Positions 13,603 through 64,000 of a DNA stretch of 64,000 bases are shown piece after piece. Source of the stretch: a virus. Each line of letters starts with the position of its first letter. Positions within the stretch are counted from its first letter, which is position 1. The stretch is from the IMG/VR virus record IMGVR_UViG_3300007512_001367, positions 53,807-117,806 of that record. One strand, given 5' to 3'. The position numbers and the translations under genes are program-made. Under the pieces are notes generated by a model. That model was not told the origin of the DNA, made no database searches, and was given only the letters and a program-made list of their open reading frames with translations.

Positions 13603-16600
13603 TTATTTCTTTTTAATTGGAACGAATTTGTCTGTTTCTAAATCGTAAACTAATCCGTGTGTTAATGCTATTGAATTATTATTTCTGCTGTCACCGTATA
13701 AATTTGCTTTTAAAGTTTTGCCATCTTTTTCGTAACATTTTGGATTTTTCATCCATAAAAATTTACAATTTGTGTGTAATTTTTTAACATAGTTAAATCC
13801 TAAACTAACACCATCGTGTCCATCTTGTCCAGCAATATCTTGTCTGTATTCTGCTTTAAAGTTCCAAGATGCATCCATATCATTTGTTGGTGTGTGATTA
13901 TAAAAGAATCCAATATCTTTTTCAATTTTAGAAGGACTCATATCAGATTCGATAGTTGTATAATTAACATCACCATCTAATGTTCTTGATTCAGGAACCG
14001 TTAAATTCATTGTACCATTTGTAATATGACTTGGTGTTGATAATGAGAATCCCCAAGAATTATTTTGATCCTTGTGTACTTCATATGCTAGTTTCATAGA
14101 TTCTGTTTCAATGTTATCAAATCCTGTTATTAAACTATTATCAGTTGTATTAACATCTGTATAACCTTTTGAATAATCAAAACTTAACACATTGTTACCT
14201 AATTGATATTCAATACCTATTTGTCCAAAATTTGTAATGTTATTATCACCAACTGCTAATGCACCACTTGAAGAGTTACCTAACCAGTTGTCTTGTTCAT
14301 TCATTTGTCCAATTGATGTTTTTAATTTAAATTTATTACTTAACATAAAGTTTTTACCTATATTTGCTGAAAAGTCTCCATTTCCATTTTCACCTGAGTA
14401 TATACCAAAGTTCATATATCCTAAATCATAATTGCCACCTTGTGCAAAATTTCCGTACATAGATTGAATTGGAAGATATGTGTGTCCATTCATCATCATA
14501 TCTATATCAGATACTTTTCTCATATCTTTAACTGAAAAACTTGATCCTAAATTTAGATAATAATCTCTTTCATATTCATCCAATATCATTACTTTTAAAT
14601 TTGCTAAATTACTTGGCAACGCAGTACCAGTTGCAAAATATGTTCCATATACATTTATAATTGGTCCGTTTGTTCTACCTGTTGTTGGAATACCTGTTGC
14701 ACCTTGTGGTTTTGTTGCTTCACTTAAATCTAATAAACCTTGTCCGTGTGTGTTTACATTATAACCATATATATTTTTATTTGCAGTAGACAATATAAGT
14801 TTAACAAGATTGTCACCTTTCATGTGTGGCCACATTTGATTTATTACACCAAATGCTCCAGTTACGTGTGGTGCCGCCATACTAGTACCAGACATATTCA
14901 TATATCCATTGCCACCTAAATGAGTTGGAACAGAACTATTGATAAGATTACCTGGTGCTAAAATATAAAAGTCTGAAACTTTGTATTGGTCATTACAAGC
15001 ATTATTAGAAATGTCTAAACATACGTGACCTGCTTTATTACCTGCAATTGTTCCGTTATCCCAGTTACCTACAATAATCATTTTGCCACCTAATATAAGG
15101 TTTCCACTTGCATCTACTTCTACTGCCCAAATACCGGGATCACCTGAGTGATTGAATCCATAGTTACCTGCAGAGTTTACTAAAATAATATCGTTGTCAG
15201 TTGCTACTTTATAATATTTTGCATTTCCATCACCATTGTCCATTTTTGAAGTAATTTCTGATGCGTTATATGTGCCATCTCCTAATTGAGTTACTGTACT
15301 ACCTTGTCCATTAGTAAACAATGTTGGAGTATTCCAACTCATATTAACTGCGACAATGTTTAAATTTTCGCCATTTGGATCTTTTAATTTTGCAAAATCA
15401 TGTAATGCCTGTTGAGCATAACTTTTTGAAATACCACCATATCCATAATAGTCAACGTTGGCACCAACTAATTCGGCATCAAACGCCACACCGTGATTTC
15501 CTGTATTATTTTTTTTACCTGCTATAATACCTGCAACGTGTGTACCGTGAACTTGTGTATTGCCTGATGTAGATACTGTATTATCATATCTTGTATAATC
15601 ATTGTACCATTTATATTTGCCACTTAATTCTGGGTGATCAGTTTGTTGGTATGTATCAATTATTCCTAATACTGCACCTTTACCTGTCCATCCTTTTGCA
15701 TAAGCATCTGCGGCATTTATAGTATTCAATCCGTGGTTTGTATTGTATTCAGTTGTTTTGTGATCATTTACAACTGTAGACATATTTTCTGTTTTTGTAC
15801 CTAGTGTTGTATCTTGATCTGTGTATGCGTTTGAAATTGTAACCTGTGCAATTTGTGTACCTGAATTACTTGAAGTAGAAACTGTATTAGCAGTTGTTTC
15901 ACTAACTGGTAGTTCTTCTGTTCTTGTAGCAGTACTAATTGTATTAACTGTCCAATCACTTGTCACTACTGTTGCAGTACCTGAAATAGTTTCTGATGTA
16001 CCGTCTTTATATGTAACCTTTGTTTGTGGTGTTGTAGTTGTAATTGTTCTAGAATTTTGTTTTGTAATATCTGTGTAAGTTCTTGTTCTTGTTACCGTAG
16101 TTGTGACTGGTGTAGTAATTGTAGTATCAACATATCTTACGGTTGTTCTTGTCGTAGTGTTGTCACCATTATCAACATCTGTAACAACATCTCTGTTTGC
16201 AGTTGTAGTAACCGCAGTTCCGTTTGCAGTAGTTGTATTTGTATCTTCTGCATCTGCATAATTTGTCACAACATATTGATCGTTGGTTTCAGTAACTGTA
16301 TTAACCGTAGCTTCAAGAGTTTCTGATGTTATTACTGGATTGTCACCTTCTCTAGTTTCTGTTGAAGTTTCTACTGTTGGATCTAAAGCTATTGTAGAAA
16401 CAACCGGTGTTCCATATGTACAGGCACTATCAACTGTTGTACCATTTAATAAAGTTTTTCTAACTATTGTACAAGGTGTTGTTGTAGTAGTTCGGTAATT
16501 TGGAGTAGTAATTGTAATTGTTCTTGTTTCTTGTCCACCACCAGCATTTACAGTTGTCCAGTCACTTGTTGAAGTTGATGCTTCAGCAGTACCTACTGTA

Positions 16601-17214
16601 TCAACTGTTGAAACTGTAGATGTACCACTTACTGTTTCTGTACTTTTAATTTTTTTAGTTTCAGCATAACTTGTTGCAGTTGTATCTTTTTCTGTATTAA
16701 TAATTTCTTGTGCTTTATCTTCTTTTGCAACCAAATTGTATTCTGTTAGAGATACTGCATTACCATTTGATACTTTTTGTATAATAGGTTTAACATGATC
16801 TCTCAAATAAATCATGGCCGCGTATGCTTCTTTATATGAATTAGAATTATATATTGTATATTTTGTTGAATCGTCTTTACTTGATATTAAATCTTCTGTT
16901 TGAGACCAAAGTGTTTCTGCTTGGTTTAACATTGATAATAGTGTATTTGCTGTCTCTATATCATCTGCATCGGGTCCTGTTAATACTGCTTGTAAACTAG
17001 AATAGTTTCCACTTGAAATAGTTGATTGGAAATTTGATAATAAACTTGAATAAGAACTTACAATAGAACTTGATCCTGATAAATTAGATAAATCACCTTG
17101 AACAAAATCATTTACAACACCAGCACCAGAACCACCGCCACCGCCTCCACAAGCTGATAGAGTCGTAGCAAGAGCTGTGCTTAATAAAATCTTCCTTAAC
17201 TTTGCGTTAATCAT
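13603..17214 (-). CDS. Subtilisin-family (S8) autotransporter lipoprotein
   Basis: 1203 aa from ATG 17214; an upstream in-frame TTG at 17250 is part of a promoter -35 and is rejected as start. Residues 1-21 are a signal peptide ending in a lipobox (TLSAC, Cys22) followed by six Gly. Residues about 30-480 are Ser/Thr-rich and repetitive. The S8 protease triad is present: Asp520 (GIIDT), His556 (HGTHVAG) and Ser778 (SGTSMAAPH). From about 920 the sequence alternates beta-strands (FGIYSGENGNGDFSANIG...) as in an autotransporter barrel. It should be an outer-membrane surface protease. It sits among phage genes on the same strand. Confidence 0.88.
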   Translation of the reverse strand: MINAKLRKILLSTALATTLSACGGGGGGSGAGVVNDFVQGDLSNLSGSSSIVSSYSSLLSNFQSTISSGNYSSLQAVLTGPDADDIETANTLLSMLNQAETLWSQTEDLISSKDDSTKYTIYNSNSYKEAYAAMIYLRDHVKPIIQKVSNGNAVSLTEYNLVAKEDKAQEIINTEKDTTATSYAETKKIKSTETVSGTSTVSTVDTVGTAEASTSTSDWTTVNAGGGQETRTITITTPNYRTTTTTPCTIVRKTLLNGTTVDSACTYGTPVVSTIALDPTVETSTETREGDNPVITSETLEATVNTVTETNDQYVVTNYADAEDTNTTTANGTAVTTTANRDVVTDVDNGDNTTTRTTVRYVDTTITTPVTTTVTRTRTYTDITKQNSRTITTTTPQTKVTYKDGTSETISGTATVVTSDWTVNTISTATRTEELPVSETTANTVSTSSNSGTQIAQVTISNAYTDQDTTLGTKTENMSTVVNDHKTTEYNTNHGLNTINAADAYAKGWTGKGAVLGIIDTYQQTDHPELSGKYKWYNDYTRYDNTVSTSGNTQVHGTHVAGIIAGKKNNTGNHGVAFDAELVGANVDYYGYGGISKSYAQQALHDFAKLKDPNGENLNIVAVNMSWNTPTLFTNGQGSTVTQLGDGTYNASEITSKMDNGDGNAKYYKVATDNDIILVNSAGNYGFNHSGDPGIWAVEVDASGNLILGGKMIIVGNWDNGTIAGNKAGHVCLDISNNACNDQYKVSDFYILAPGNLINSSVPTHLGGNGYMNMSGTSMAAPHVTGAFGVINQMWPHMKGDNLVKLILSTANKNIYGYNVNTHGQGLLDLSEATKPQGATGIPTTGRTNGPIINVYGTYFATGTALPSNLANLKVMILDEYERDYYLNLGSSFSVKDMRKVSDIDMMMNGHTYLPIQSMYGNFAQGGNYDLGYMNFGIYSGENGNGDFSANIGKNFMLSNKFKLKTSIGQMNEQDNWLGNSSSGALAVGDNNITNFGQIGIEYQLGNNVLSFDYSKGYTDVNTTDNSLITGFDNIETESMKLAYEVHKDQNNSWGFSLSTPSHITNGTMNLTVPESRTLDGDVNYTTIESDMSPSKIEKDIGFFYNHTPTNDMDASWNFKAEYRQDIAGQDGHDGVSLGFNYVKKLHTNCKFLWMKNPKCYEKDGKTLKANLYGDSRNNNSIALTHGLVYDLETDKFVPIKKK

Positions 17215-18209: not shown

Positions 18210-18837
18210 TTTTTATTGCGACAAATTTTATTACTTTGTCAATACCTTTTTGTGCTATCATATAGATAGGAGTTAGCATTTTTTCTTCGCTCACATAAAA
18301 ATATCCATGGTAACAATGAGGATATTTGCCAATTAAATAATCTAATACATATTTGTTTGATACTAAACAGTCGTTTTCATTATTTTCTAATAGTCTCCAT
18401 AAACTTTGTTTTTCTGAATCTGTAATGTGTTGATGCACATCTTTTTTAAGATGTATTTGATATTGAAATTTACCATGAGGTAATCTTTTACAACCTACTG
18501 AGTTTTTGCCTAATTTATTATATTTTGGATTAACAGATTCAGACCCATACCAGTCATTCCAAAATTCATTTACAATTTTTTTTGCTAAAGGTTCGCTTGT
18601 ATAAAAAATTACATATTTTTGTTGTATTCTAAATTTCATTTGTGTTCTATAATCTAAAATAAATTTTGCTATTTTGGCTATATTCATATCAAAATCGGTT
18701 GCAGATATTTTATACATTTTTACTAAACGATATAAGTTTTCATCAGTAGTAGGATATAGTTTACTTGCATAAGGCATTTTGAATATGCTTTTAAATCCGT
18801 ATTTTTGATAGTATAATTTATTGTGATGTTTTCGCAT
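18178..18837 (-). CDS. Conserved phage hypothetical
   Basis: 219 aa, basic and rich in Tyr and Lys, starting MRKHHNKLYYQKYGFKSIFKMPYA. No catalytic motif is evident. Proteins opening with a (K)HHNKLYY..Y.FK motif recur in marine T4-like phages without known function. It overlaps the end of clpA by 20 nt and so should be co-expressed with it. Confidence 0.6.
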   Translation of the reverse strand: MRKHHNKLYYQKYGFKSIFKMPYASKLYPTTDENLYRLVKMYKISATDFDMNIAKIAKFILDYRTQMKFRIQQKYVIFYTSEPLAKKIVNEFWNDWYGSESVNPKYNKLGKNSVGCKRLPHGKFQYQIHLKKDVHQHITDSEKQSLWRLLENNENDCLVSNKYVLDYLIGKYPHCYHGYFYVSEEKMLTPIYMIAQKGIDKVIKFVAIKNGRNKKTKKT

Positions 18838-21160
18838 TTTCTTTTTTTGGTTTAAATTGATTTGTTATAATCGGTGCTTTAAATTGTACTTTTAGTTTTG
18901 GTACGACATCGTTAGATAAACTAACGGCAACTCTACCACCTTCTGTTAATTCACCAAATAGTATCATTCTAGATAAAGGTTTCTTAATTTCTTCGTCTAT
19001 AACTCTTTGTAAAGGTCTTGCTCCCATTTTAGCATTAAATCCTTTTTTAATTAAAAATTCAATAGCTTCATCATTAGCATTAACTTCTACATTTTTCTCT
19101 ACGGTCATTGCATTTAATTCTAGTAAGAATTTCTTAACAATTAATTTCATTGTTTCTTTTGCTAGTTTAACAAATTTAACTGTTGCATCTAGTCTATTTC
19201 TAAATTCTGGAGGAAAGAATTTTTTCAAAGCGGTATCATCTTCGCCGGTTCTTTCGCTTGGTCCAAAACCAATACTTTCTCTTTCCATTTCTTCTGCACC
19301 TAAATTTGAAGTCATGATAAGTGTAATATTTCTACAATCTGCTTTTTTACCGTTGGAACCAGTAACACTTCCATAATCCATAACTTGTAATAGCATATTG
19401 GATACATCACGATGTGCTTTTTCTACTTCATCAAATAATACAACCGCGTGTGGATTTTTTTCTATTTCATTTATAAACATACCACCACCCATTGTAGTAT
19501 CTTCGTAGCCTACATAACCTGGAGGTGAGCCAATTAGTTTTGCAATAGAATGTTTCTCTTGATATTCTGACATATCAAATCTTAATAGTTCAACACCTAA
19601 AGTTTTTGCTAATTGTTTTGCAGTTTCAGTTTTACCACAACCCGTAGGTCCTAAAAATAAAAATGATCCAACAGGTTTGTTTAAAGTTTTTAATCCTGCT
19701 CTTGCAACTAATATTCTATCGATAATAGTATTAAGTGCTTTATCTTGTCCAAATATTTGCAGTTTCATTTTTTCTTCTAATGTTTTTAAACTTGTTGCTT
19801 GTTTTTGTGACAGTTGCTCAATTGATATACCTGTTGTAGCAGATATTTCATGTATTATTTCTTCATGGTCTATTTTGCCATCTTTAATTCCGTTTAATCT
19901 TAATCTTGCACACGCCACGTCAATAATGTCAATTGCTTTATCAGGCAATTTTTTATCTGTAACAAATTTTGATGTATATTCTACTGCGTCTTCACAAGCA
20001 TCATCGGTTATAGTACATTTATGAAATTGTTCATAGTATTGTTTAACACCTTTTAATATTTTAACCGCAGTTTCATTTGAAGGTTCACCTATTTGTAATC
20101 TTTGGAATCTTCTCATTAATGCTCTATCTTTTTCAAAGAATTTTCTATACTCTTCCCAAGTAGTAGATGCAATTACTTTTATATTACCCTTCATTAGTGC
20201 AGGTTTAATCATATTAGCCATATCCATACTGTTACCACTTCCAGTAGCACCAGCACCTACCATCATATGTGCTTCATCGATGTGTAATACTGTTTTGCCT
20301 TTTTGATCTAATGCATTTAAAACAAGTTTTAATCTTTCTTCAAAGTCTCCTCTAAATTTAGATCCTGCTATTAAAGAGTTTACATCTAAACTATATACGA
20401 TATGATTTTTTAAATATTCTGGAATATCTTCTTTATTTTTAGCGATACGTCTTGCAAGTCCTTCGATTAGTGCCGTTTTACCTACACCAGGGTCACCTAC
20501 TATTAATACATTATTTTTATTTCTTCTTGCTAGAATTTGTTTTAGTTGATTAGTTTCTTCTATTCGTCCTATTACAGGATCAATTTTTTTATCAAAATAT
20601 TTTTGATTTAAATTCTCAGTATAGTTTTTTAATATTCTATCTGCTTGGTTTGGTCGTAGTTTTTGTTCAACGCCAATCATTCCAGGGCCAGGTCCACCCA
20701 TAGCCGCCATACCTTCGTCTAATATAGTTTCGGTAGATACTAGATCCATTAAGTCTTGTTTATTAACTTTGTGTTTTTTTAAGAAAAATGAACCATAACT
20801 TTTCTTTTCAGCAAATATACTGATTAATATATCTACAGAAGTAACATCTTGTCTACCTTGAAATAATGCTTGAGTAAATGCTCTGTTCATTAATCTTTCT
20901 AATGATGCAGTTTTTCGTGGTGCTATAGGTTTAGTTGATTTTGAAATAATGTCTGTACATTTTGTATCAAGATAATCTTCAACGTCTTTAATCATTTGTC
21001 CAACATTAATTTTAAATTCTGATAATGTGGTACCAATATCTTTGTCCTTGATTAATGCTAATAGTACGTGTTCAATTGTAACGTATTCGTGTTTTCGTTT
21101 TTCTGCTTCGTTTACAGAATTTGTAAATATGTTTTCTAATGATTCATTAGCTTCAAGCAT
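18818..21160 (-). CDS. clpA: ClpA-like AAA+ unfoldase
   Basis: 780 aa from ATG 21160, chosen because GGAGGA precedes it. The N-terminal Clp-N repeats (residues 1-140) are followed by two AAA+ modules: Walker A GDPGVGKT at 222-229 with HIDEAH, and GPTGCGKT at 504-511 with LFDEVEKAH. A SIGF loop at about 629-632 matches the IGF/IGL loop by which ClpA docks on ClpP. The length is close to E. coli ClpA (758). No ClpP gene is in the window, so it probably recruits host ClpP to redirect protein turnover. Confidence 0.92.
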   Translation of the reverse strand: MLEANESLENIFTNSVNEAEKRKHEYVTIEHVLLALIKDKDIGTTLSEFKINVGQMIKDVEDYLDTKCTDIISKSTKPIAPRKTASLERLMNRAFTQALFQGRQDVTSVDILISIFAEKKSYGSFFLKKHKVNKQDLMDLVSTETILDEGMAAMGGPGPGMIGVEQKLRPNQADRILKNYTENLNQKYFDKKIDPVIGRIEETNQLKQILARRNKNNVLIVGDPGVGKTALIEGLARRIAKNKEDIPEYLKNHIVYSLDVNSLIAGSKFRGDFEERLKLVLNALDQKGKTVLHIDEAHMMVGAGATGSGNSMDMANMIKPALMKGNIKVIASTTWEEYRKFFEKDRALMRRFQRLQIGEPSNETAVKILKGVKQYYEQFHKCTITDDACEDAVEYTSKFVTDKKLPDKAIDIIDVACARLRLNGIKDGKIDHEEIIHEISATTGISIEQLSQKQATSLKTLEEKMKLQIFGQDKALNTIIDRILVARAGLKTLNKPVGSFLFLGPTGCGKTETAKQLAKTLGVELLRFDMSEYQEKHSIAKLIGSPPGYVGYEDTTMGGGMFINEIEKNPHAVVLFDEVEKAHRDVSNMLLQVMDYGSVTGSNGKKADCRNITLIMTSNLGAEEMERESIGFGPSERTGEDDTALKKFFPPEFRNRLDATVKFVKLAKETMKLIVKKFLLELNAMTVEKNVEVNANDEAIEFLIKKGFNAKMGARPLQRVIDEEIKKPLSRMILFGELTEGGRVAVSLSNDVVPKLKVQFKAPIITNQFKPKKENAKTSQ

Positions 21161-21378: not shown

Positions 21379-21889
21379 TAATTTTTTTTTCTAATTTTTT
21401 AACTGCCATATCCCATCGAAGTTTAGATACTTTAGTATTAAATGTAATACCGTTTAGATGATCAAGTTCATGTTGAAAGCATTTACTTTCCATACCATCT
21501 AAATGTTGCATTAAAGTTTCTCCTTTTTTGTTCTCCCATTTTACTGTAACTCTTTTAGGTCTTTCTATTTTTACAAATACTCCTAAAAAACTTAAACATC
21601 CTTCTTCATCCAACGTTTTTTCTTCACTTTCTCGAACTATCGATGGATTCCATATTATAACAGGTTTTTGCATTTTGTCAAACGACTCGTGTCCAAATGC
21701 AAAGAATCGCTTGGTAACGCCTATTTGATTTGCCGCTAATCCCAAACCTCGAGCATTTATCATTAAATTAATCATATCGTTTTCAAATTTTTCAATATCA
21801 TCGTAATCAAGAAGTTTATCGTTTTTAATGTCAAACGGAGTACTTACTTCCGTTAATGCTTTATGTGGATATTGCAATATTGAAATCAT
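21359..21889 (-). CDS. def: Peptide deformylase
   Basis: 176 aa. All three metal-site motifs are present: GLGLAANQ (48-55), EGCLS with Cys98, and QHELDH with His140 and His144. The enzyme removes the N-formyl group from nascent proteins. Marine phages often carry a deformylase, thought to favour synthesis of viral or photosystem proteins. It is coupled to dnaJ by a 4-nt overlap. Confidence 0.95.
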   Translation of the reverse strand: MISILQYPHKALTEVSTPFDIKNDKLLDYDDIEKFENDMINLMINARGLGLAANQIGVTKRFFAFGHESFDKMQKPVIIWNPSIVRESEEKTLDEEGCLSFLGVFVKIERPKRVTVKWENKKGETLMQHLDGMESKCFQHELDHLNGITFNTKVSKLRWDMAVKKLEKKINATQRV

Positions 21890-22731
21890 AAATTTTTTAT
21901 TTTGTTTAAATCTGTTTGTGAAAGTTCCGGTATTATAATGTTTATTCTCACATATAGATTTCCTCTAATATTTAACGTCTTGTGTATGGGCATACCTTGT
22001 CCTTTACAAAGGATCAAAGTTCCGGGTTGTGTAGCAGGTGGTACTTGTATTTTAATAATAGTATCAGTTAATGTTTTTAATTTTAATTCAAGTCCTCGTA
22101 TTGCTTGAAAACAATTTATAGTTTTATCTGTATATAAATCGTTTCCTTTTCTTGTATAGCCATCAGAATCAAGAACACTCATTTGTACTAATAAATCACC
22201 ACGTGGCATATTTTTTATTGAATCATCTCCCATACCTTTGTATTTGAATGTTATACCATGTTGTACACCAGCTGGAATTTTTACTGTGGCAAATTCTTCT
22301 TTGTTTGAAGGTAGTCTATATGATATAGTTTTTTCTAAGGTGTTCATTGCTTCTTTAATTGATATAGACATTCTTACGTTTATACTTTTATTATGTTGTT
22401 GTCGTGTTCTAAAAGTTCTTGTTCGTACATTAGGTCCACCAAAACCAGAAAAGAAATTCTCAAACATATCTTCACCAAAGAAGTCACCAGAAGTAAAATG
22501 AAAGTTTCCTCCTTGTCCACCACTATTTTGGCCGTATTTTCTTATAGTATCATATTCTTGTTTTTTACTAGAATTTTTTAATGTGTCGTAGGCTTCATTA
22601 GCTTCTTTAAATTTTGTTGTATCCCCTCCACGATCTGGGTGATGTTCTTTTGCTAATTTTTTAAAAGCCTGTTTAATTTGTTTGTCAGATGCATTTTCTG
22701 ACACACCTAGTATATTATAATAATTCTTCAT
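21886..22731 (-). CDS. dnaJ: DnaJ/CbpA-type co-chaperone
   Basis: 281 aa. The J domain (residues 1-70) contains HPD at 31-33, followed by a Gly/Phe region (GGQGGNFHF..FFGEDMFENFFSGFGG) and a C-terminal substrate-binding domain without the cysteine-rich zinc finger, so it is of the CbpA type. It should stimulate host DnaK. It is the first gene of a dnaJ-def-clpA operon under a consensus sigma70 promoter. Confidence 0.93.
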   Translation of the reverse strand: MKNYYNILGVSENASDKQIKQAFKKLAKEHHPDRGGDTTKFKEANEAYDTLKNSSKKQEYDTIRKYGQNSGGQGGNFHFTSGDFFGEDMFENFFSGFGGPNVRTRTFRTRQQHNKSINVRMSISIKEAMNTLEKTISYRLPSNKEEFATVKIPAGVQHGITFKYKGMGDDSIKNMPRGDLLVQMSVLDSDGYTRKGNDLYTDKTINCFQAIRGLELKLKTLTDTIIKIQVPPATQPGTLILCKGQGMPIHKTLNIRGNLYVRINIIIPELSQTDLNKIKNL

Positions 22732-55672: not shown

Positions 55673-55927
55673 TTAGATGGCTGATGGGTTTGGTAAAGAT
55701 TCCAAGGTAGGTTTACCACCATTTTCTAGGTAATCGTAATATTCGTTAAATTCGGGTTCATTCATGCAATATATTTCGCCAGCAGAAGTTGGATATTGTT
55801 TCACCATGAAATTTTTAACATTTTGTGATGCATTAAGGCAGTCGTTCATAGATGGATACCATGTCTGTTCCCAGATTGCATTACAATCCATGCCAAAACA
55901 TATTATTATTACCATTATAAATTTCAT
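55673..55927 (-). CDS. Small exported hypothetical
   Basis: 84 aa. A short signal-like start (MKFIMVIIICFGMDCNA) precedes a mature part with Cys at two spaced positions (DCLNAS, YCMNEPE). Likely periplasmic. A Shine-Dalgarno GGAAGGAA precedes it and a late-type TTAAATAA box lies about 20 nt upstream. Confidence 0.6.
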   Translation of the reverse strand: MKFIMVIIICFGMDCNAIWEQTWYPSMNDCLNASQNVKNFMVKQYPTSAGEIYCMNEPEFNEYYDYLENGGKPTLESLPNPSAI

Positions 55928-56158: not shown

Positions 56159-57805
56159 CTATCTTACCACGGTATAAACCTTGATAGGTTCGGTCTTACC
56201 TTTGACGGTAATGCTGTCGATATATTCAAACGGAAATATATGTTCAATACCTTTCATAGTATTCTCTGAAATTACCAAAGTTTTGCCTAATGTTTTACTT
56301 GAGCTTTCTAAACGTGATGCAAGGTTAACAGCATCACCAATTACAGAGTAGTCAAATCTTTGATCAGAACCCATATTACCTACAAGTGCTTGACCTGTGT
56401 TAATACCTATGCCTATGTTAATTTCAGGTAATCCTTCTGCAGTTAATTCTTCATTTAATTTTACTAGTTCTGTTTGCATCTGTGACGCTGACATTACTGC
56501 TAACATTTGATGATCTTTTACATCAAGTGGTGCATTCCAAAATGCCATAATGCAGTCTCCCATAAACTTATCTACGGTTCCACCATTAGCAATTATAACG
56601 TTTGTCATGCGTGTTAAAAATCTATTAACAAGTTTTGTAAGTCCTTCTGGATTGCCTTTATATTTTTCACTTATAGGTGTAAAGCCACGTATATCTGAAA
56701 ATAAAAATGTCATTATTTTTGTTTCGCCTCCTAGTTTTAATAAAGAAGGATTTTTTTGTAATTTTTTAACCATTCTAGGATCTAGGTAGTGTTCAAATTG
56801 TCTTTTAATTTGTAATTTTAGTCTGTTCTCACGTGCAAAGTTATTGTATATTAAATGTCCCCAAACTATGGTAACAATTACAACAGGAGTTAACCATTCT
56901 GTAAGATATAATTTTGTGTTCCATAGATAGGCACTTGCTCCAAGTACAATACTTAGATAAACTATGATAGGTATAAAACTCCATAGGACGCCGAGTCGTG
57001 GAATAATAATTAGGAATATTATACCTCCTATAATAACAAATGCCCATTCTACTTTCTCTAGCCAATCCGGTCTACTAATAAAATTTTGTGATAATAATGT
57101 TTCTGTACCAATAGCCATAATCTCATGAGTGTTTTTTAAACCATTAGGCGTAGTAACGAATGTTGATCCTTTAAATGTAGTTCCAATGAATACAATTTTG
57201 CCCTTCATTTTTGACCAGTTACTTTTGTCTGTATAATCTATTCGTGGAATATGATGTCTAAAATCTAACCATATTTCGTTTTTTGCTTTATTGTAATATT
57301 GAATTGTTTCTAATATAACAGCAGGAATTGACCTATCAAGTGGTAGTCTTCTTATAGTACCATCTATGTCAATAGGTACACTTACATTACCTACCGCCCG
57401 GGCTTTTCGTTCAATGCTGAGTAAGTTTTTAACATCGTCGGTCTCGGTAAGAATAACTGGATATTTTGAAATCATTTTAAGAAACATTTCGTCTCCGCCT
57501 AGTCTATCTTTATGTGCAAATACGACTTGTAAGACTACCAGAGCGGCACCACTCCGATAAGCATTAACTATTGTCCGTCCTAAAATATCACGTTTCCATG
57601 GCCATTGTCCTTGTTTTTTTAGAGCTTCGTCAGATATATCTAACAAAATTAAACTCTTTGAGTCAAAGTGTTGTCCAAATTTTTGATAGGAATCAAACGT
57701 TGTCAGTTTTGCTGACTGAATAGGTGTTGGGTCTGCCCATTTTATGAATAAAAGGATCATCAAAGTGACACAAACCGCCCAGGTGCTTGTTAAAATTTTC
57801 GACAT
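56159..57805 (-). CDS. CHASE2-domain transmembrane adenylate cyclase
   Basis: 548 aa. An N-terminal membrane helix (residues 5-22) is followed by a periplasmic CHASE2 sensor (about 30-235, with LLDISDEAL and KGKIVFIGTT), three membrane helices (about 250-330) and a class III cyclase (about 360-548). FSDIRGF and DKFMGDC supply the two metal Asp and the adenine-specific Lys; YSVIGDAVNLASR supplies Asp and the Asn/Arg. So it should make cAMP. The domain is nearly identical to that of the second copy at 62844. It is transcribed divergently from the curli operon. Confidence 0.93.
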   Translation of the reverse strand: MSKILTSTWAVCVTLMILLFIKWADPTPIQSAKLTTFDSYQKFGQHFDSKSLILLDISDEALKKQGQWPWKRDILGRTIVNAYRSGAALVVLQVVFAHKDRLGGDEMFLKMISKYPVILTETDDVKNLLSIERKARAVGNVSVPIDIDGTIRRLPLDRSIPAVILETIQYYNKAKNEIWLDFRHHIPRIDYTDKSNWSKMKGKIVFIGTTFKGSTFVTTPNGLKNTHEIMAIGTETLLSQNFISRPDWLEKVEWAFVIIGGIIFLIIIPRLGVLWSFIPIIVYLSIVLGASAYLWNTKLYLTEWLTPVVIVTIVWGHLIYNNFARENRLKLQIKRQFEHYLDPRMVKKLQKNPSLLKLGGETKIMTFLFSDIRGFTPISEKYKGNPEGLTKLVNRFLTRMTNVIIANGGTVDKFMGDCIMAFWNAPLDVKDHQMLAVMSASQMQTELVKLNEELTAEGLPEINIGIGINTGQALVGNMGSDQRFDYSVIGDAVNLASRLESSSKTLGKTLVISENTMKGIEHIFPFEYIDSITVKGKTEPIKVYTVVR

Positions 57806-57815
57806 AATAGTACAA

Positions 57816-57856
57816 TATTTAAGTGCATATAAATTGGTTAAGATATTACATAAATA
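57816..57856. promoter_or_regulatory. Divergent late-type promoters between cyclase and csgF
   Basis: Minus strand: CTTAAATA (57823-57816) with 10 nt to the cyclase ATG 57805. Plus strand: CATAAATA (57849-57856) with a start expected near 57863 and a Shine-Dalgarno AGGAG before ATG 57884. Both sides of the module therefore have T4-late-type boxes. Confidence 0.5.
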
Positions 57857-57883: not shown

Positions 57884-58336
57884 ATGCGAATTTTAACGAC
57901 AATATTACTATTTTTATTCATGATAACTGGGTCAAACGCCAGTGAAATCACTTTTGACTTTGACAGTCCATCTTTTAGTGGACAGGGCAAAAGTTCACAT
58001 TATTTGACCATTGAAAACATAGAAAAAACAAGAAAAGATGCTATAAAAGCCGCTGATAAAGCCGCAAAAGAAAAAGCAGAACAAGATGCAAAAAATACTG
58101 CGGTAGCAAAATTCAAAGCAAACTTAGAATCAAGATTTTATACGGCTTTAGCAAAACAAATTACAACAAACGTATTTGGTGCTGACGGCTTACAACAAGA
58201 TTCAGGAACATTTACATCACCTATTGGTGGAGAAGTTGTAACTTGGACAACGCCTTCAGGTACTGGTAATGTTACAATTACTGTTACTGAAACAGACGGA
58301 ACTGTAACATCATTTACTATGCCGAAGGAAGACTAA
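57884..58336 (+). CDS. csgF: CsgF-like curli accessory protein
   Basis: 150 aa. A signal peptide (MRILTTILLFLFMITGSNA) is followed by ITFDFDSPSFSGQ, close to the CsgF N-terminal F-x-F-x-N/S-P-x-F-x-G segment that inserts in the CsgG pore, then a long helix and a beta-rich end (GNVTITVTETDGTVTSFTMP). CsgF tethers and nucleates curli at the surface. It sits 5 nt before csgG with a Shine-Dalgarno site upstream. Confidence 0.82.
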   Translation: MRILTTILLFLFMITGSNASEITFDFDSPSFSGQGKSSHYLTIENIEKTRKDAIKAADKAAKEKAEQDAKNTAVAKFKANLESRFYTALAKQITTNVFGADGLQQDSGTFTSPIGGEVVTWTTPSGTGNVTITVTETDGTVTSFTMPKED

Positions 58337-58341
58337 TAATA

Positions 58342-59595
58342 ATGTTTAAAAAATTAGCAATTATATTTCTAGCAACTTTATTTCTGGCTAGTTGTGCTGG
58401 TAAACCAGACTTCGATTACAGAACTCAAAAGCCTGCGGCAAAAACATTTATTGAGGTTCCTGAGTTAGATGGCGATCCAATTATAATTGCTGTCTATGAT
58501 TTCTTAGATATGACAGGGCAAAAGAAGCCAGGTGGCAATTTTGCTTCAATGAGTACAGCAGTAACTCAAGGTTCATATCAACTTTTAATTAAAGCATTAC
58601 AAGATGCTGGAGAAGGCAAATGGTTTAGAGTTGTTGAAAGAGCAAGTCTACCAAGCCTATTACAAGAAAGAAAACTTATTAGATCAACAAGACAAATGGC
58701 AGATGGTGATCAAGCTGAACCATTACCAGCATTATTATTTGCAGGTGCATATATTACAGGTGGTATAGTAGGATACGATTCAGATACTAAATCAGGTGGT
58801 ATAGGTGCAAGAATTTTAGGCGTACAAGCCAATACACAATACAGACAAGATGTAGTTACTGTTATTTTAAGATTAGTAAATGTGCAAACAGGTGAAGTTG
58901 TTATATCAACAACAATTGAAAAAACAATATTCTCAACAGGAACAGGTGGAGATATATTCAAGTACTTTGATGCTGATACAATGTTATTAGAAACTGAAAT
59001 TGGAGTAGCAAGAAACGAACCAGTTACTTTTGCTGTGAGAAAAGCAATTGAAGCCGGTGTTGCAGAAATTATACAAGTAGGTGCTAAAAAAGAAATATGG
59101 AAAATTAAACTACCACCGGAACCAGTACTACCAGAAGCAGTTGAAGAGTCAGATGCAGAAGTTGTTACTGAAGAAGAAGTAAAAGTAAATTTAGAAGTAG
59201 AACAAACAGTAGTAAAAATTAAAACAAGAGAAGAATACCTAGCAGAAAAGAAAGCTAAAAAACTTGCATTGTTAGAAGAGAAGAAAGCTAAAAAAGAAGC
59301 CTTGAAGGCAGAAAAGTTAGCTAAAAAAGAAGCATTGTTGGCTAAAAAACATTTAAAGAAAGTTCAAAAGAATGAATTAGCTTGGTATAATAAAGCTAAC
59401 AGTACAGATTTTAAAACTTGGGATGAATATCAAGACCATTTAAAAATGTTAGTAGCATTTGATTTAAAAGAAACAGAAAAAGAAATACGTAAAGCAAAAA
59501 TTCAAACAATTTTAAATGATCAGAAAGCCGCATTGGAGGTCGCAGATGAGAGCGTTATTATTGAGTCTAATACTGTTACTAGCAACAACGATTAA
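58342..59595 (+). CDS. csgG: CsgG-like outer-membrane secretion pore, C-terminally extended
   Basis: 417 aa (E. coli CsgG 277). A lipoprotein signal ends in LFLASC (Cys18). The CsgG core (about 40-260) shows AVYDFLDMTGQKKP, STAVTQGSYQLL, ERKLIRSTR, GYDSDTKSGGIGAR and LRLVNVQTGEVV. A further 150 residues of Lys/Glu/Ala-rich coil and a helical end are not found in classical CsgG. The protein would form a nonameric channel exporting the curlin. Its 3' end overlaps the curlin gene by 50 nt. Confidence 0.9.
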   Translation: MFKKLAIIFLATLFLASCAGKPDFDYRTQKPAAKTFIEVPELDGDPIIIAVYDFLDMTGQKKPGGNFASMSTAVTQGSYQLLIKALQDAGEGKWFRVVERASLPSLLQERKLIRSTRQMADGDQAEPLPALLFAGAYITGGIVGYDSDTKSGGIGARILGVQANTQYRQDVVTVILRLVNVQTGEVVISTTIEKTIFSTGTGGDIFKYFDADTMLLETEIGVARNEPVTFAVRKAIEAGVAEIIQVGAKKEIWKIKLPPEPVLPEAVEESDAEVVTEEEVKVNLEVEQTVVKIKTREEYLAEKKAKKLALLEEKKAKKEALKAEKLAKKEALLAKKHLKKVQKNELAWYNKANSTDFKTWDEYQDHLKMLVAFDLKETEKEIRKAKIQTILNDQKAALEVADESVIIESNTVTSNND

Positions 59596-60634
59596 TTGTT
59601 ATGCGAGTAATAAAGTCTTTATAACACAAATTGATCAAGAAAATGGTTCAGTCTATATAAAACAAGACGGATTAAACAATACGTTTGGAAGAAGCACAGA
59701 TAATCCTTTTGTAATTGACGGAAATAAAATTACTATTATTATTAAACAAATAGGTAATACAAACGTAACAGATTATAATGGTCACTTATCTTTTAAAGGT
59801 ACTAATATGACCTTTGATTATACAGCAATTGGTAATTCTAATAAATTAAGACCTGACATAGATGACGTTAATGCTACAGGTTTTTATTTAGATCATGATA
59901 TTACAGGTGATTCAAACGTAGTAGACTATGATACTTGGTCAGACTCTACAACAAATTTCAATGTTGACTTAGACATTTATGGAGATTCAAATACATTTTG
60001 GGTTCAGAATAGAGGTGACAACCATTTCTTATATGTTCGTATGTCAGGTGACTCAAATACTGTAGAATGGTACAGTTCAACAGATTCAGAAGGATTTAAT
60101 ACAAATGCAAATAAGGCAATTGGTCCACAAACTGCTTCGCATAGTCAGTTTGCAGATAGTTCAGGTAGCGAAGGTGCAAGTGCAGATATTTACATAGTAG
60201 GAAATTCAAATGTAATACACACTTCATCATATGGTACAGGCAACTATCAACTTCACGATTTTATAGGTAATTCAAATCTTTTAGATATTCACTCTAGTTA
60301 CACTGGTTCTGATACAGACCCTTATGGAGATTCAGCAATAATATCAGGCGATAACAATTGGTTGAGAACAATAATAAATGGTGATGATAATACAATAAGA
60401 CTTCACATGGCAGGTGGTAATAATACTGCTAAAATTTTTCTTTATACAGATGATTCAGTAATAAACTTTGCTCAAACAGGTGGAGGTAATGATGGTAAGG
60501 TTACTATAACAGGTGATAGCATTTACGACTATACATTAAATTTTACACAAGACGGTTCAGACACTTGCGTATATTCATACAACAGGAATACTCAATCAGC
60601 TGATGTAACTGCTACTGTATCTAACGGGTGTTAA
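59546..60634 (+). CDS. Curlin-like repeat protein
   Basis: 362 aa from ATG 59546, preceded by a perfect GGAGGT; a longer frame from 59516 lacks a good site. A signal peptide (MRALLLSLILLLATTINCYA) is followed by about a dozen G-[ND]-[ST]-N turns (GNTN, GNSN, GDSN, GDNN) interspersed with aromatic/Val strands and Q-x-G (FITQ, IKQ, FAQTG), as in curlin amyloid repeats. It is longer than CsgA (151 aa). It ends with a lone Cys pair (DTCVY, SNGC). It is the probable secreted cargo. Confidence 0.72.
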   Translation: MRALLLSLILLLATTINCYASNKVFITQIDQENGSVYIKQDGLNNTFGRSTDNPFVIDGNKITIIIKQIGNTNVTDYNGHLSFKGTNMTFDYTAIGNSNKLRPDIDDVNATGFYLDHDITGDSNVVDYDTWSDSTTNFNVDLDIYGDSNTFWVQNRGDNHFLYVRMSGDSNTVEWYSSTDSEGFNTNANKAIGPQTASHSQFADSSGSEGASADIYIVGNSNVIHTSSYGTGNYQLHDFIGNSNLLDIHSSYTGSDTDPYGDSAIISGDNNWLRTIINGDDNTIRLHMAGGNNTAKIFLYTDDSVINFAQTGGGNDGKVTITGDSIYDYTLNFTQDGSDTCVYSYNRNTQSADVTATVSNGC

Positions 60635-60636
60635 TC

Positions 60637-62847
60637 ATGAAGAAGTTCTTCTTTGTGGTATCCTTTTTGATACTATTTGTTACAAATGCTTTAGCTGTAA
60701 CTGTAGGTGAAGTTAAAGACAAAATGGGTTCCACGTTTAATGAACGTGGCGGAAAAACTTATAAAGTTGAATCAGGTTATCTTTTAGAAATGAATGACTT
60801 TCTCCAAACTGGAGAAGATGGTGCTATGAACATTGTGTTTGTAGATGAAACAAAAATTACTCTTGCACCTAACACAGAATTTTTAATTGATGAATTTGCT
60901 TTTGACACAACAGTTGTGCCAATAGAAATTGCAATGAATGTATCGGTTAACGTAGGAACGTTTACTTACGAGTCTGGCGAAATTTCTAAAATGAATGGTG
61001 ATGTAGAAATTGCAACGCCAACAGCAACAATTACAGTACAAGGTACAGCATTTTCAGGATCAGTATCAACAAGTGGAGTTACAACAATTACATTACTTCC
61101 GGATTCTTCTGGGCAAGTAGGAAAAGTTACAGTTTCTAATGATGCAGGTTCTCAAACAATAACCCAAGTATATACATCAGTAACAGTTATTAGTGATAGC
61201 CTAGTACCTAGAGCACCATCTCCATTAGATAATCTTCAGAAAAAGAATTTATTTGATTTAGATAGTGTTGAAGACGGTATTGAAGATAAAAATGATCTTC
61301 AATTTGATAGAAAAGAAAATAACGAATTTTTAGAAAACGAAAAAGAAATGTTTGAATCTAACGAGTTGTTAGAGCAAGAATCTTTAGAAATAGAAATGGA
61401 TGCCAAAGAAGCCAACGAAATGGAAGAACAAATTGTATCAGAGGAATTAACAATTGAATCAGACACATTAACATCAGACACTACGGTGGCAGTTGAAGAT
61501 TTTACAACACAATCAAGTGAAATAGATACAAGTTCTACTCAAGATATAGTAATAGATGAAGTAGTAGAATCAGACATAGATACATCTTATTATGATTCAT
61601 GGGAAGACGATTTAAAAGATTGGGGTTATATTGATGACGACAATCAAATATCAGTGTGGGACGCTGAAGGTGAACAAACTATGGATTGGGATGATGCTAA
61701 ACAGATGTATGCAGAAATGGATCAAGCATACTTTGACGCAATAGGTTGTTCAGATTGTACGTGGGACACAATTAATTGGGATTCTATAGATTGGGATGAA
61801 GTTGATTGGACTGCATACATGGAAGAATATAACGACTTATTAGAAGATTATGGATTGACGGCTTATGATGCCGTAGTAGAAGATAAATCTGAAGAAGTTG
61901 AAGAAGAAGCAACATCTACAATTGAAGGATATACTTGGGAAGATTTTAAATTAGATGACGAATATTATGCTAACTCAGATTACATAGCAAATGGCGGCCC
62001 ACCAACTTTAACAATAGAAAATTATTGTAATTACAATGGCTATGGTAGTGATTGGTGTACTCAAGAATATTTAGATTACTTAAATGACTGGTATACAGAT
62101 GACTGGAAGTTGTTTAAAAATTATACTTCATGGACACCAGAAGCTAAATCACTTTTCAAAAAATGGTATGGCTGGTGTTGGGTAAGCAGTTGGACTTGGG
62201 AATTTTGTGAAGGTCAACCCTATCCTTGGGATATGCCAAGTTTAAAAGACAAGTATATTGCGGATTGGACTTGGGACGATTGGGATACATTTTATGATTG
62301 GACTTACAACTGGTACTACTATGGTGAGTATGAAGAAGATGATGGTTCAGTAACATTAGAAGAAGAGTATGCTTACGAAGATGATTATGATCAAGATTTA
62401 GAATTAGAACTATGGTTAGCAGATATTGATAACGAAGAAGATTGTCTTAATTGGGGTTACTATTGGGACACTGCAAATTCAGCCTGCGGTACAGAATGGG
62501 TTGACAATGATGCTGGAACAACAGTAACAACAAGTGGTGAAGTTATTAACTATGAAACAGGAGATATTACTCAAACAACAGTTACAACAGATGGTGTCAC
62601 AGGTGCAACTTCATCATCAACTGCAACAGGAAGATATACAACTGGTAGTAATACAAACGATGCCACTGCTAGTACAAGTGGAAACTATTCAATTGTAAAC
62701 AGAACGCATGGTGGTCATACTGCATATATAAAATCTGAAACGGCGGACTCTGCAGACATTCAAATAGTTCAAGATTCAGAAACTCAAAATATAACAATTG
62801 GTACAGATTCTACTAAACCTGAAGTAACTATAATTCAAACAGATTAA
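60637..62847 (+). CDS. FecR-domain exported protein with Trp/Asp-rich region
   Basis: 736 aa from ATG 60637 (the GTG at 60628 overlaps the curlin stop and is rejected). A signal peptide (residues 1-20) precedes a FecR-type domain (about 30-165: VDETKITLAPNTEFLIDEF, TPTATITVQGTAFSG). The region 190-300 is acidic, 300-620 is very rich in Trp, Asp and Tyr, and the C-terminus returns to Thr-rich beta repeats. It resembles FecR/CHASE2 gene pairs of marine bacteria, where a FecR-type protein senses or is displayed. Its stop overlaps the second cyclase stop by 3-4 nt. Confidence 0.82.
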   Translation: MKKFFFVVSFLILFVTNALAVTVGEVKDKMGSTFNERGGKTYKVESGYLLEMNDFLQTGEDGAMNIVFVDETKITLAPNTEFLIDEFAFDTTVVPIEIAMNVSVNVGTFTYESGEISKMNGDVEIATPTATITVQGTAFSGSVSTSGVTTITLLPDSSGQVGKVTVSNDAGSQTITQVYTSVTVISDSLVPRAPSPLDNLQKKNLFDLDSVEDGIEDKNDLQFDRKENNEFLENEKEMFESNELLEQESLEIEMDAKEANEMEEQIVSEELTIESDTLTSDTTVAVEDFTTQSSEIDTSSTQDIVIDEVVESDIDTSYYDSWEDDLKDWGYIDDDNQISVWDAEGEQTMDWDDAKQMYAEMDQAYFDAIGCSDCTWDTINWDSIDWDEVDWTAYMEEYNDLLEDYGLTAYDAVVEDKSEEVEEEATSTIEGYTWEDFKLDDEYYANSDYIANGGPPTLTIENYCNYNGYGSDWCTQEYLDYLNDWYTDDWKLFKNYTSWTPEAKSLFKKWYGWCWVSSWTWEFCEGQPYPWDMPSLKDKYIADWTWDDWDTFYDWTYNWYYYGEYEEDDGSVTLEEEYAYEDDYDQDLELELWLADIDNEEDCLNWGYYWDTANSACGTEWVDNDAGTTVTTSGEVINYETGDITQTTVTTDGVTGATSSSTATGRYTTGSNTNDATASTSGNYSIVNRTHGGHTAYIKSETADSADIQIVQDSETQNITIGTDSTKPEVTIIQTD

Positions 62848-64000
62848 TTTTTAATTGTATAAACTTTAATTTTTTCAGTTTTGCCTTTAACTGTAATGCT
62901 ATCTATGTATTCAAAAGGATAAACTGTTTCAATGCTGTGTCTAGTGTCTTCACCTATTACTAGTGTTTTGCCTAATGTTTTACTAGAGCTTTCTAGTCTA
63001 CTTGCTAAATTTACAGCATCTCCAATTACAGAGTAATCAAATCTTTGTCTAGATCCCATATTACCTACAAGTGCTTCACCTGTGTTAATACCAATTCCTA
63101 TATTAATTTGAGGTAGTCCTTCAGCAACTAATTGTACATTTAATAATGCTAATTCTATTTGCATTTCAATTGCACTTTTAACTGCTAGTTGTCTGTGTTT
63201 GTTATTATCCAATGGAGCATTCCAAAATGCCATTATACAGTCGCCCATAAACTTATCTATTGTTCCACCATTTTTGATTATAATGTCGGTCATGCTAGTT
63301 AAAAATCTATTAATAAGTTTTGTAAGTGCTTCTGGATTACCTTTGTACTTCTCACTAATAGGTGTAAATCCTCTAATGTCTGAAAACAAGAAAGTCATTG
63401 TTTTTGTTTCTCCACCTAGTTTTAATAGTGAAGGATCTTTCTGTAATTTTTTAACCATGCTTGGATCTAAATAATGTTCAAATTGTCTTTTAATTTGTTT
63501 TCTTAGTCTACTTTGTGTTGCAAAATTATTGTATGTGCTATGCGACCAAATTAAAAATATGTATAATACTGCAAATGAAGGATCTATTAACCAACCTTTG
63601 TTTGCATAAGCCATAAATGATGCATAACTTATTCCACCTAATACAAAAACTAATAGTGGAACAGAAAATAATACTGATACTCTAGGAATTAATACTATCA
63701 TTAATAATCCTAGTAAACCTATAAACAAAATTTCATATGTATCTGCCTGTGGAAGTCTAGTCAAATATTTTCCTGTTAGTAATGTATCTAATGCTTGAGC
63801 AGTAATTTCTTGATCTGTGGTTAATCCAAAAGGTGTATATTTTAATACACTTAATCCTGCGGCATCTAATCCTACAACTATTATTTTTCCTTTAACTGTA
63901 TTTGCATCAAATTCAGAACTTAAAACATAGTCAGCAGATACGTGATTATATTTTTTTGGATTTGCATAATTTATATACATTTCTGCATTATGATTTACAG
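62844..64000 (-). CDS. CHASE2-adenylate cyclase, second copy, 5' partial
   Basis: The frame is open to the right edge; no true start is in the window (the first ATG at 63980 lies within the CHASE2 domain). Visible are the end of CHASE2 (VKGKIIVVGLDAAG), three membrane helices, and a complete cyclase with FSDIRGF, DKFMGDC and YSVIGDAVNLASR, very similar to the copy at 56159. Both copies are on the minus strand and bracket the plus-strand curli operon. The catalytic residues are intact. Confidence 0.92.
   Translation of the reverse strand, partial: VNHNAEMYINYANPKKYNHVSADYVLSSEFDANTVKGKIIVVGLDAAGLSVLKYTPFGLTTDQEITAQALDTLLTGKYLTRLPQADTYEILFIGLLGLLMIVLIPRVSVLFSVPLLVFVLGGISYASFMAYANKGWLIDPSFAVLYIFLIWSHSTYNNFATQSRLRKQIKRQFEHYLDPSMVKKLQKDPSLLKLGGETKTMTFLFSDIRGFTPISEKYKGNPEALTKLINRFLTSMTDIIIKNGGTIDKFMGDCIMAFWNAPLDNNKHRQLAVKSAIEMQIELALLNVQLVAEGLPQINIGIGINTGEALVGNMGSRQRFDYSVIGDAVNLASRLESSSKTLGKTLVIGEDTRHSIETVYPFEYIDSITVKGKTEKIKVYTIKN

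Follow-up and report, generated by a model that had tools for sequence, protein, structure and literature searches.

We found a curli-type (type VIII) secretion cassette in a 64,000-nucleotide stretch of the virus record IMGVR_UViG_3300007512_001367. This stretch, called the window here, covers bases 53807-117806 of a 117,806-bp record that is itself a fragment. As the original prediction for this DNA had stated, a single operon of four plus-strand genes, encoding CsgF, an extended CsgG, a curlin-like repeat protein and a FecR-domain protein, lies at window positions 57884-62847; the record is that of a T4-superfamily phage. The operon has a CHASE2 adenylate cyclase on both sides, a feature absent from that prediction, which also did not include the curlin-like tail of the FecR protein or the type I secretion module that adjoins the operon in this phage species. 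In outline, the phage-borne curli cassette is already in the literature: CsgF and CsgG were reported in pelagimyophages in 2020 (PMC7029224), and in 2022 there followed a cassette of curlin, FecR and cyclase in podophages and myophages across the ocean (PMC9599517) and a methylophage version of the cassette (PMC9004378). The hunch that curli genes of marine phages had been reported before was thus correct. Beyond the accounts consulted, the present case adds a new reading of the FecR protein, a further module for surface display, a defined exchange point and a distinct phage lineage. The reading that we favour, and that we judge to be evenly balanced between right and wrong, is a late-transcribed type VIII cassette on a phage, with a FecR-anchored fibre and a module-specific cyclase, that is exchangeable with a type I module. 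With slightly less than even confidence, we further propose a docking site for interchangeable curli and type I adhesin modules, at which the FecR anchor is read by a CHASE2-fused backbone cyclase, coupling fibre assembly to cyclic AMP (cAMP).

By homology, CsgG and the CsgF plug constitute a putative outer-membrane export pore. The csgF gene (57884..58336, plus strand; 150 aa) matches PF10614 at E 1e-12, and its product has a signal peptide (by eye) and the N-terminal pore-plug motif EITFDFDSPSFSGQG. The motif, [SN]P[SA]F[STN]GxG, is kept in 55/55 unique phage homologues, and a mixed phage-bacterial CsgF profile matches E. coli CsgF (6l7a) at E 7e-9 via the plug-motif segment. A CsgF with an N-terminal CsgG-binding plug, as in type VIII secretion, is therefore present, and the conserved motif together with the 6l7a match speaks against the phage CsgF having abandoned its CsgG partner. 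The csgG gene (58342..59595, plus strand; PF03783, E 8e-49) encodes a lipoprotein with the lipobox LASC (by eye); the lipobox cysteine is invariant in CsgG, and the pore lipoprotein of type VIII secretion is thus present. Residues 8-256 align with E. coli CsgG (3x2r/6l7a) at E 1e-43. The protein was rightly called extended, since it has 417 aa and a Lys/Glu-rich C-terminal extension of 160 residues; full-length CsgG proteins have 305-425 aa in the window-type family and 277-280 aa in the phages HTVC008M and Melnitz and the contig L004. CsgE, CsgB and CsgC had not been seen in the original prediction. Consistent with this, we found no match to a CsgE gate of the gammaproteobacterial type in the record, a fragment, and saw no canonical CsgA/CsgB and no CsgC or CsgD in the cassette. 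Other phage systems and those of Alphaproteobacteria lack CsgE as well (PMC9599517).

The csgG gene overlaps the next gene by 50 bp. This gene (59546..60634, plus strand) encodes the curlin-like protein of 362 aa, in whose family an alignment of 38 sequences reveals an invariant G..N ladder with a period of ~22-28 residues. AlphaFold2 predicts a beta-rich stack (predicted local distance difference test, pLDDT, 75; predicted template modelling score, pTM, 0.78). A fold search with this model gave no significant PDB match, just weak beta-helix ones. The profile search proposed with the original prediction, which recovered csgF and csgG, left Curlin_rpt (PF07012) below the cut-off: the sole signal in the 117,806-bp record has E 1.35 and falls at 60380-60481, inside the curlin-like gene. 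The curlin relatives of HTVC008M and Melnitz match PF07012 above the cut-off. On the basis of the fold prediction and the repeat ladder, the curlin-like protein is a candidate fibre subunit, and a fibre may be supposed from it.

The last gene of the operon (60637..62847, plus strand) encodes the FecR-domain protein of 736 aa, or 739 aa from a GTG start at 60628. PF04773 matches it at E 2.5e-7, or at E 1.2e-8 against the FecR domain alone. The protein consists of a signal peptide (by eye), the FecR domain (approximately residues 22-180), a Trp/Asp-rich middle and a curlin-like C-terminus. Its C-terminal beta strands (62521..62844, plus strand), supported by the homologue ends and the AlphaFold2 strands, finish with the curlin-like strand ..EVTIIQTD. 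The full-length homologues have in common a signal peptide (by eye), the FecR domain, the Trp/Asp-rich middle and a near-invariant ..ITIIQTD end. All 38 full-length homologues, including those of HTVC008M and Melnitz, terminate in [AVI]x[VIL]xQxx, a pattern whose background frequency is 5e-4 per position elsewhere in FecR proteins and 9e-3 in curlins. AlphaFold2 predicts regular C-terminal strands at a pLDDT of ~80. A Foldseek search with the FecR protein ranked 5ix9, a 'cell surface anchoring domain', first (probability 1.00; template modelling score 0.68 on the target), and 5ix9 was also the top PDB sequence match (E 4.6e-4) of a FecR-domain profile that includes type I adhesin rows. A PDB profile search with the whole-length protein gave no match; only the domain alignment gave one. 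Phage adhesins that contain RTX or cadherin domains start with this same FecR domain. Because the curlin-like end is universal among the homologues and the FecR domain resembles the anchoring domain of 5ix9, the FecR protein looks like a cargo that is exported and anchored, and not like an iron regulator. Residues ~315-620 form a conserved Trp/Asp/Tyr-rich region with invariant cysteines that belongs to no known family; this middle region is found in the window-type FecR family and is missing from HTVC008M and Melnitz.

We then compared the cyclases. The first, AC1 (56159..57805, minus strand), combines CHASE2 (PF05226, 1.8e-28) with a class III adenylate cyclase (PF00211, 7.9e-22) and is divergent from csgF. 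The second, AC2, lies tail-to-tail with the FecR gene; the window holds its 3' 384 codons (62844..64000, minus strand), and the complete 641-aa protein is found in the IMG/VR contig L006 (L numbers denote our comparison contigs). Both have the CHASE2 and cyclase domains above the cut-off and the cyclase motifs FSDIRGFT, KFMGD and DYSVIGDAVNLASR, with the metal aspartates, substrate lysine and transition-state Asn/Arg of class III cyclases. The cyclase half of AC1 (56162..56809, minus strand) contains the joint at which related phages exchange modules, as located by half-wise identities and a DNA breakpoint. Two contigs with near-identical backbones, L007 with a curli cassette and L116 with a type I module, are 95% identical in DNA over 4,045 bp, a stretch that begins within the cyclase gene and continues into the backbone; upstream of it their DNA is unrelated. 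The two cyclases share 27% identity in the sensor half and 98% in the catalytic half; this is the one pair in which the DNA breakpoint inside the cyclase gene is shown. The half-wise identities follow the modules in other pairs too: AC1 of the window is 92% (sensor) and 78% (catalytic) identical to AC1 of L007, and 27% and 87% identical to AC2 of L145, while AC2 of the window is 97% and 83% identical to AC2 of L145. On these identities AC1 is assigned to the curli cassette. The comparisons show a CHASE2 sensor half inherited with the secretion module and a catalytic half inherited with the backbone, since in pairs with the same kind of module the sensor half is more conserved than the catalytic half, a pattern that mere constraint on the catalytic domain would not produce. 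The arrangements recur in contigs from different metagenomes (curli in L007-L012; type I in L089, L092 and L116), which argues against a single misassembly.

The window's phage holds both modules, curli and type I-like. In L145 and L108, two close relatives (87% in the polymerase), the recovered parts contain the cyclase of the type I module and no CsgG. The cassettes of the window and L007 are 92% identical in DNA despite different backbones, and their CsgG proteins cluster together in a tree, which points to a recent transfer. In L177, a 65,128-bp contig whose polymerase is 83% identical to that of the window, a window-type backbone is bordered by a FecR gene and cyclase of HTVC008M-type curli; this curli type is a third occupant of the site. 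In L016 (1-4383), AC2 stands head-on to AC1 ahead of csgF, and the curli cassette is reversed relative to the type I module. This orientation suggests an inversion or an independent insertion.

The second module becomes visible in L006, which reaches beyond the window: behind AC2 come HlyD, a permease of 249 aa and OEP/TolC (L006:14361-18211). The permease matches type I secretion ABC proteins in the membrane domain only. An AC2-based scan revealed a conserved order, adhesin - OEP - permease - HlyD - AC2, which is complete in ten counted loci (some of them one species repeated) and partial in ~12 more; the loci include L006:14361-18211, L116:3815-11926, L144, L145, L148 and L149. The adhesins (1000-1700 aa) begin with the FecR domain; cadherin-like regions and an acidic coiled coil come next, and in some of them RTX/serralysin signals form the end. 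The permease measures 247-251 aa in 19/19 full copies, none of which has an ATPase domain. The module has the OEP and HlyD of type I secretion and lacks an ABC permease with an ATPase domain, so it is type I-like with one defining part missing. We found no report of a phage-encoded type I adhesin module in the open-access literature. An 84-aa backbone gene that borders the curli cassette (55673..55927, minus strand) has homologues immediately behind AC2 in L116 and close to AC2 in L109 and L149. Relatives of the window cyclase occur in 638 plasmid records. On alphaproteobacterial plasmids, FecR adjoins a CHASE2-cyclase in 4/4 loci read, two of which also have NHLP-type exporters and a cyclic nucleotide monophosphate (cNMP)-binding protein. 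Since four annotated plasmid curli loci carry neither FecR nor a cyclase, the FecR-cyclase pair appears, from these loci, to be older than its link to curli.

The T4-like setting given in the original prediction holds, as the record encodes a T4-type DNA polymerase and a clamp loader. The polymerase has its nearest relatives in Rhizobiaceae jumbo phages, Sinorhizobium phage Phosso (50%) and Agrobacterium phage Atu_ph07 (44%), and not in HTVC008M; it is only ~30% identical to those of HTVC008M, Melnitz and curli-bearing pelagimyophage contigs. On this evidence the cassette is placed in a further phage lineage, distinct from the HTVC008M-type pelagimyophages. The proposed search for the cassette in related phages found the backbone-cassette join at 100% identity in the IMG/VR contigs L005 and L006 and at lower identity in L013, L014 and L026, and more than 60 further viral contigs have the same cassette gene order beside phage genes. 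A chimera of bacterial and phage DNA was therefore rejected. That bacterial DNA was misassembled onto phage DNA has nothing in its favour other than the position of the cassette at the end of the record, and with the recurrent join, the further viral contigs and the lack of GCWGC in cassette and backbone alike we regard it as practically negligible.

The search for a bacterial donor found none: when genomes were scanned with a profile of phage CsgG, the one match was in a 'Flavobacteriaceae MAG' (metagenome-assembled genome) contig. This 6.7-kb contig, L093 (NZAX01000026.1), is an HTVC008M-type cassette with csgF, csgG, curlin, FecR, curlin and cyclase genes, and is probably mis-binned phage DNA within the reference genome set. 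No near-identical match to the last 24 kb of the window was found in the phage records searched. A CsgG match in 'Salmonella phage S.Kent 1-2-1' was set aside, as it lies in an unverified 1.5-kb contig that looks like host DNA.

A T4-type late promoter box, CATAAATA (57849..57856, plus strand), is located 35 bp upstream of csgF, where the original prediction had placed a T4-late-type box. The late-promoter grammar holds recordwide: NATAAATA occurs in 16 copies in the record, 13 of which sit 14-58 bp before a same-strand open reading frame (binomial P ~5e-17). The absence of GCWGC noted for the cassette and elsewhere also extends to all 117,806 bp (0 sites against ~83 expected), and GCSGC is common (110). 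The pattern resembles that expected if a particular restriction site is avoided, or if the sites were lost under some other pressure. The HTVC008M and Melnitz loci carry GCWGC at expected rates.

In the reading that we favour, the phage-borne type VIII cassette would be transcribed late, and CsgG with its CsgF plug would form an outer-membrane pore exporting the curlin and the FecR protein. The curlin-like protein would be the fibre subunit. We infer that the FecR protein anchors at the pore and seeds the fibre: as a second exported component, it would join or seed the fibre with its C-terminal curlin strand, as CsgB does in E. coli, while its N-terminal FecR domain would remain on the periplasmic face of the pore, tethering the fibre. 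The CHASE2-cyclase, whose sensor half is co-inherited with the module, may sense the FecR cargo of its own module in the periplasm and produce cAMP in the host. The phage clade would thus have two exchangeable surface-display modules, curli on the one hand and FecR-adhesin, OEP, ABC permease, HlyD and CHASE2-cyclase on the other, which may replace or join one another via recombination inside the cyclase gene. The benefit is probably a changed surface of the infected cell late in infection, which could make cells aggregate, help to capture new hosts or keep rivals out. That the phage equips the infected cell with surface fibres late in infection, as originally predicted, is supported as far as the phage-resident operon and the late-promoter grammar go, and the fibre itself is the most economical reading of the sequences. 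A speculation on 'sibling capture' (PMC7029224) matches this surface-fibre reading.

Several observations weigh against it. Melnitz-infected cells showed no clumping (PMC9004378), and the curlin of the window lacks a Pfam curlin match above the cut-off. The overall AlphaFold2 model of the FecR protein is poor (pTM 0.27) and usable in parts only, its Foldseek match to 5ix9 has an E-value of 0.017, and without the adhesin rows the FecR profile matches 5ix9 at E 0.095, still as the sole PDB match. The plasmid curli loci indicate that curli are not generally paired with FecR-cyclase. Finally, no cNMP-binding protein was found in the 117.8-kb record, so the reader of cAMP would be the host's or encoded outside the record.

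Other explanations have been offered for such genes. CsgG and CsgF might have diverged from curli export and now serve as a pore in the outer membrane, either for lysis, in the manner of a pinholin or secretin, or for release; AlphaFold models and the gene position led to this suggestion for Melnitz (PMC9004378). We consider this unlikely, as the conserved plug motif aligns with solved CsgF, the curlin and FecR cargo, needless for lysis, is always encoded alongside, and curlin genes were found in such phages (PMC9599517). An open CsgG pore that increases nutrient uptake of the infected cell, proposed in PMC7029224, would agree with the lack of a CsgE gate in the record. It is very unlikely in our view, because it leaves CsgF, the curlin, the FecR tail and the cyclase unexplained, as well as the same-site exchange with the type I adhesin module.

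Quite unlikely, too, is that FecR is an iron-responsive regulator and that the cyclase and FecR regulate the type VIII secretion system, as proposed for pelagiphages in 2022; PMC9599517 calls FecR an iron-dependent regulator and mentions cAMP control of curli in Gammaproteobacteria. A FecI/FecR iron-signalling circuit consists of an extracytoplasmic function (ECF) sigma partner and an N-terminal anti-sigma part, and the record showed neither. No ECF sigma region 4 (Sigma70_r4_2) was found in the record, a fragment. A Pfam search of the FecR protein matched no N-terminal cytosolic anti-sigma part and no other domain, and its N-terminus is a signal peptide (by eye) ahead of a periplasmic-type FecR domain. 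The curlin-like tail of all homologues and the occurrence of the same domain at the head of type I adhesins likewise disagree with a regulator.

With the csgF-csgG-curlin-FecR order and a cyclase on a phage genome, the cassette belongs with the pelagiphage type VIII systems; in the window clade the cyclase is upstream and on the other strand. The records of HTVC008M and Melnitz have the same gene set. Compared with pelagimyophage curli (HTVC008M, Melnitz, PMP; PMC7029224, PMC9004378), which shares the gene order and a CHASE2-type cyclase, the window has one curlin instead of two, a CsgG of 417 aa instead of 277-280 aa and a FecR protein of 736 aa with a Trp/Asp-rich insert instead of ~370 aa. 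Its cyclase is divergent ahead of csgF, a second one stands tail-to-tail behind FecR, and the polymerase lineage is only ~30% identical. The HTVC023P-type podophage system (PMC9599517) shares CsgF, CsgG, CsgA/B, FecR and adenylate cyclase, and transfer between phage families was inferred for it; the histidine kinase of that system was not seen in the window cassette. That paper takes FecR for an iron regulator and, in the sections consulted, describes neither a type I module nor an exchange point inside the cyclase. The curli system of E. coli (csgBAC/csgDEFG) has the CsgG pore and CsgF plug in common with the window by sequence, whereas the record lacks CsgE, the cassette shows no CsgC/CsgD and no canonical CsgA/CsgB, and FecR and cyclase are added. 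Type I adhesins of the LapA/MpIBP type (5ix9) have an anchoring domain like the FecR domain of the curli-side protein and the phage adhesins, but the curli-side protein lacks an RTX C-terminus, and its presumed pore is CsgG and not OEP. In the Burkholderia BiofilmReg operon (PMC5192318), an adjacent LysM-FecR protein and CHASE2 sensor control biofilm; there CHASE2 is on a histidine kinase, with no secretion module.

The phage backbone in the window has further genes of note. A predicted lipoprotein (by eye) of 1,203 aa with a subtilase domain (13603-17214, minus strand; PF00082, E 3e-33) is unusual for a phage and is possibly a surface or secreted protease. Two phage-borne proteostasis genes encode a ClpA/B-type ATP-dependent protease homologue (18818-21160, minus strand; PHROG 4871) and a DnaJ-like protein (21886-22731, minus strand; by eye).

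The reason for curli genes on marine phages is an open question in the papers describing them. Because curli and type I adhesin modules swap at the same site and fill one slot, selection most likely acts on surface display itself rather than on lysis, uptake or iron sensing. If the proposed docking site is real, the type I-like module with its ATPase-less permease would represent a new type of exporter encoded by phages, and the phage would tie cAMP in its host cell to the assembly of surface fibres. FecR-CHASE2 pairs are also bacterial and little characterised, so the answer would reach beyond phages.

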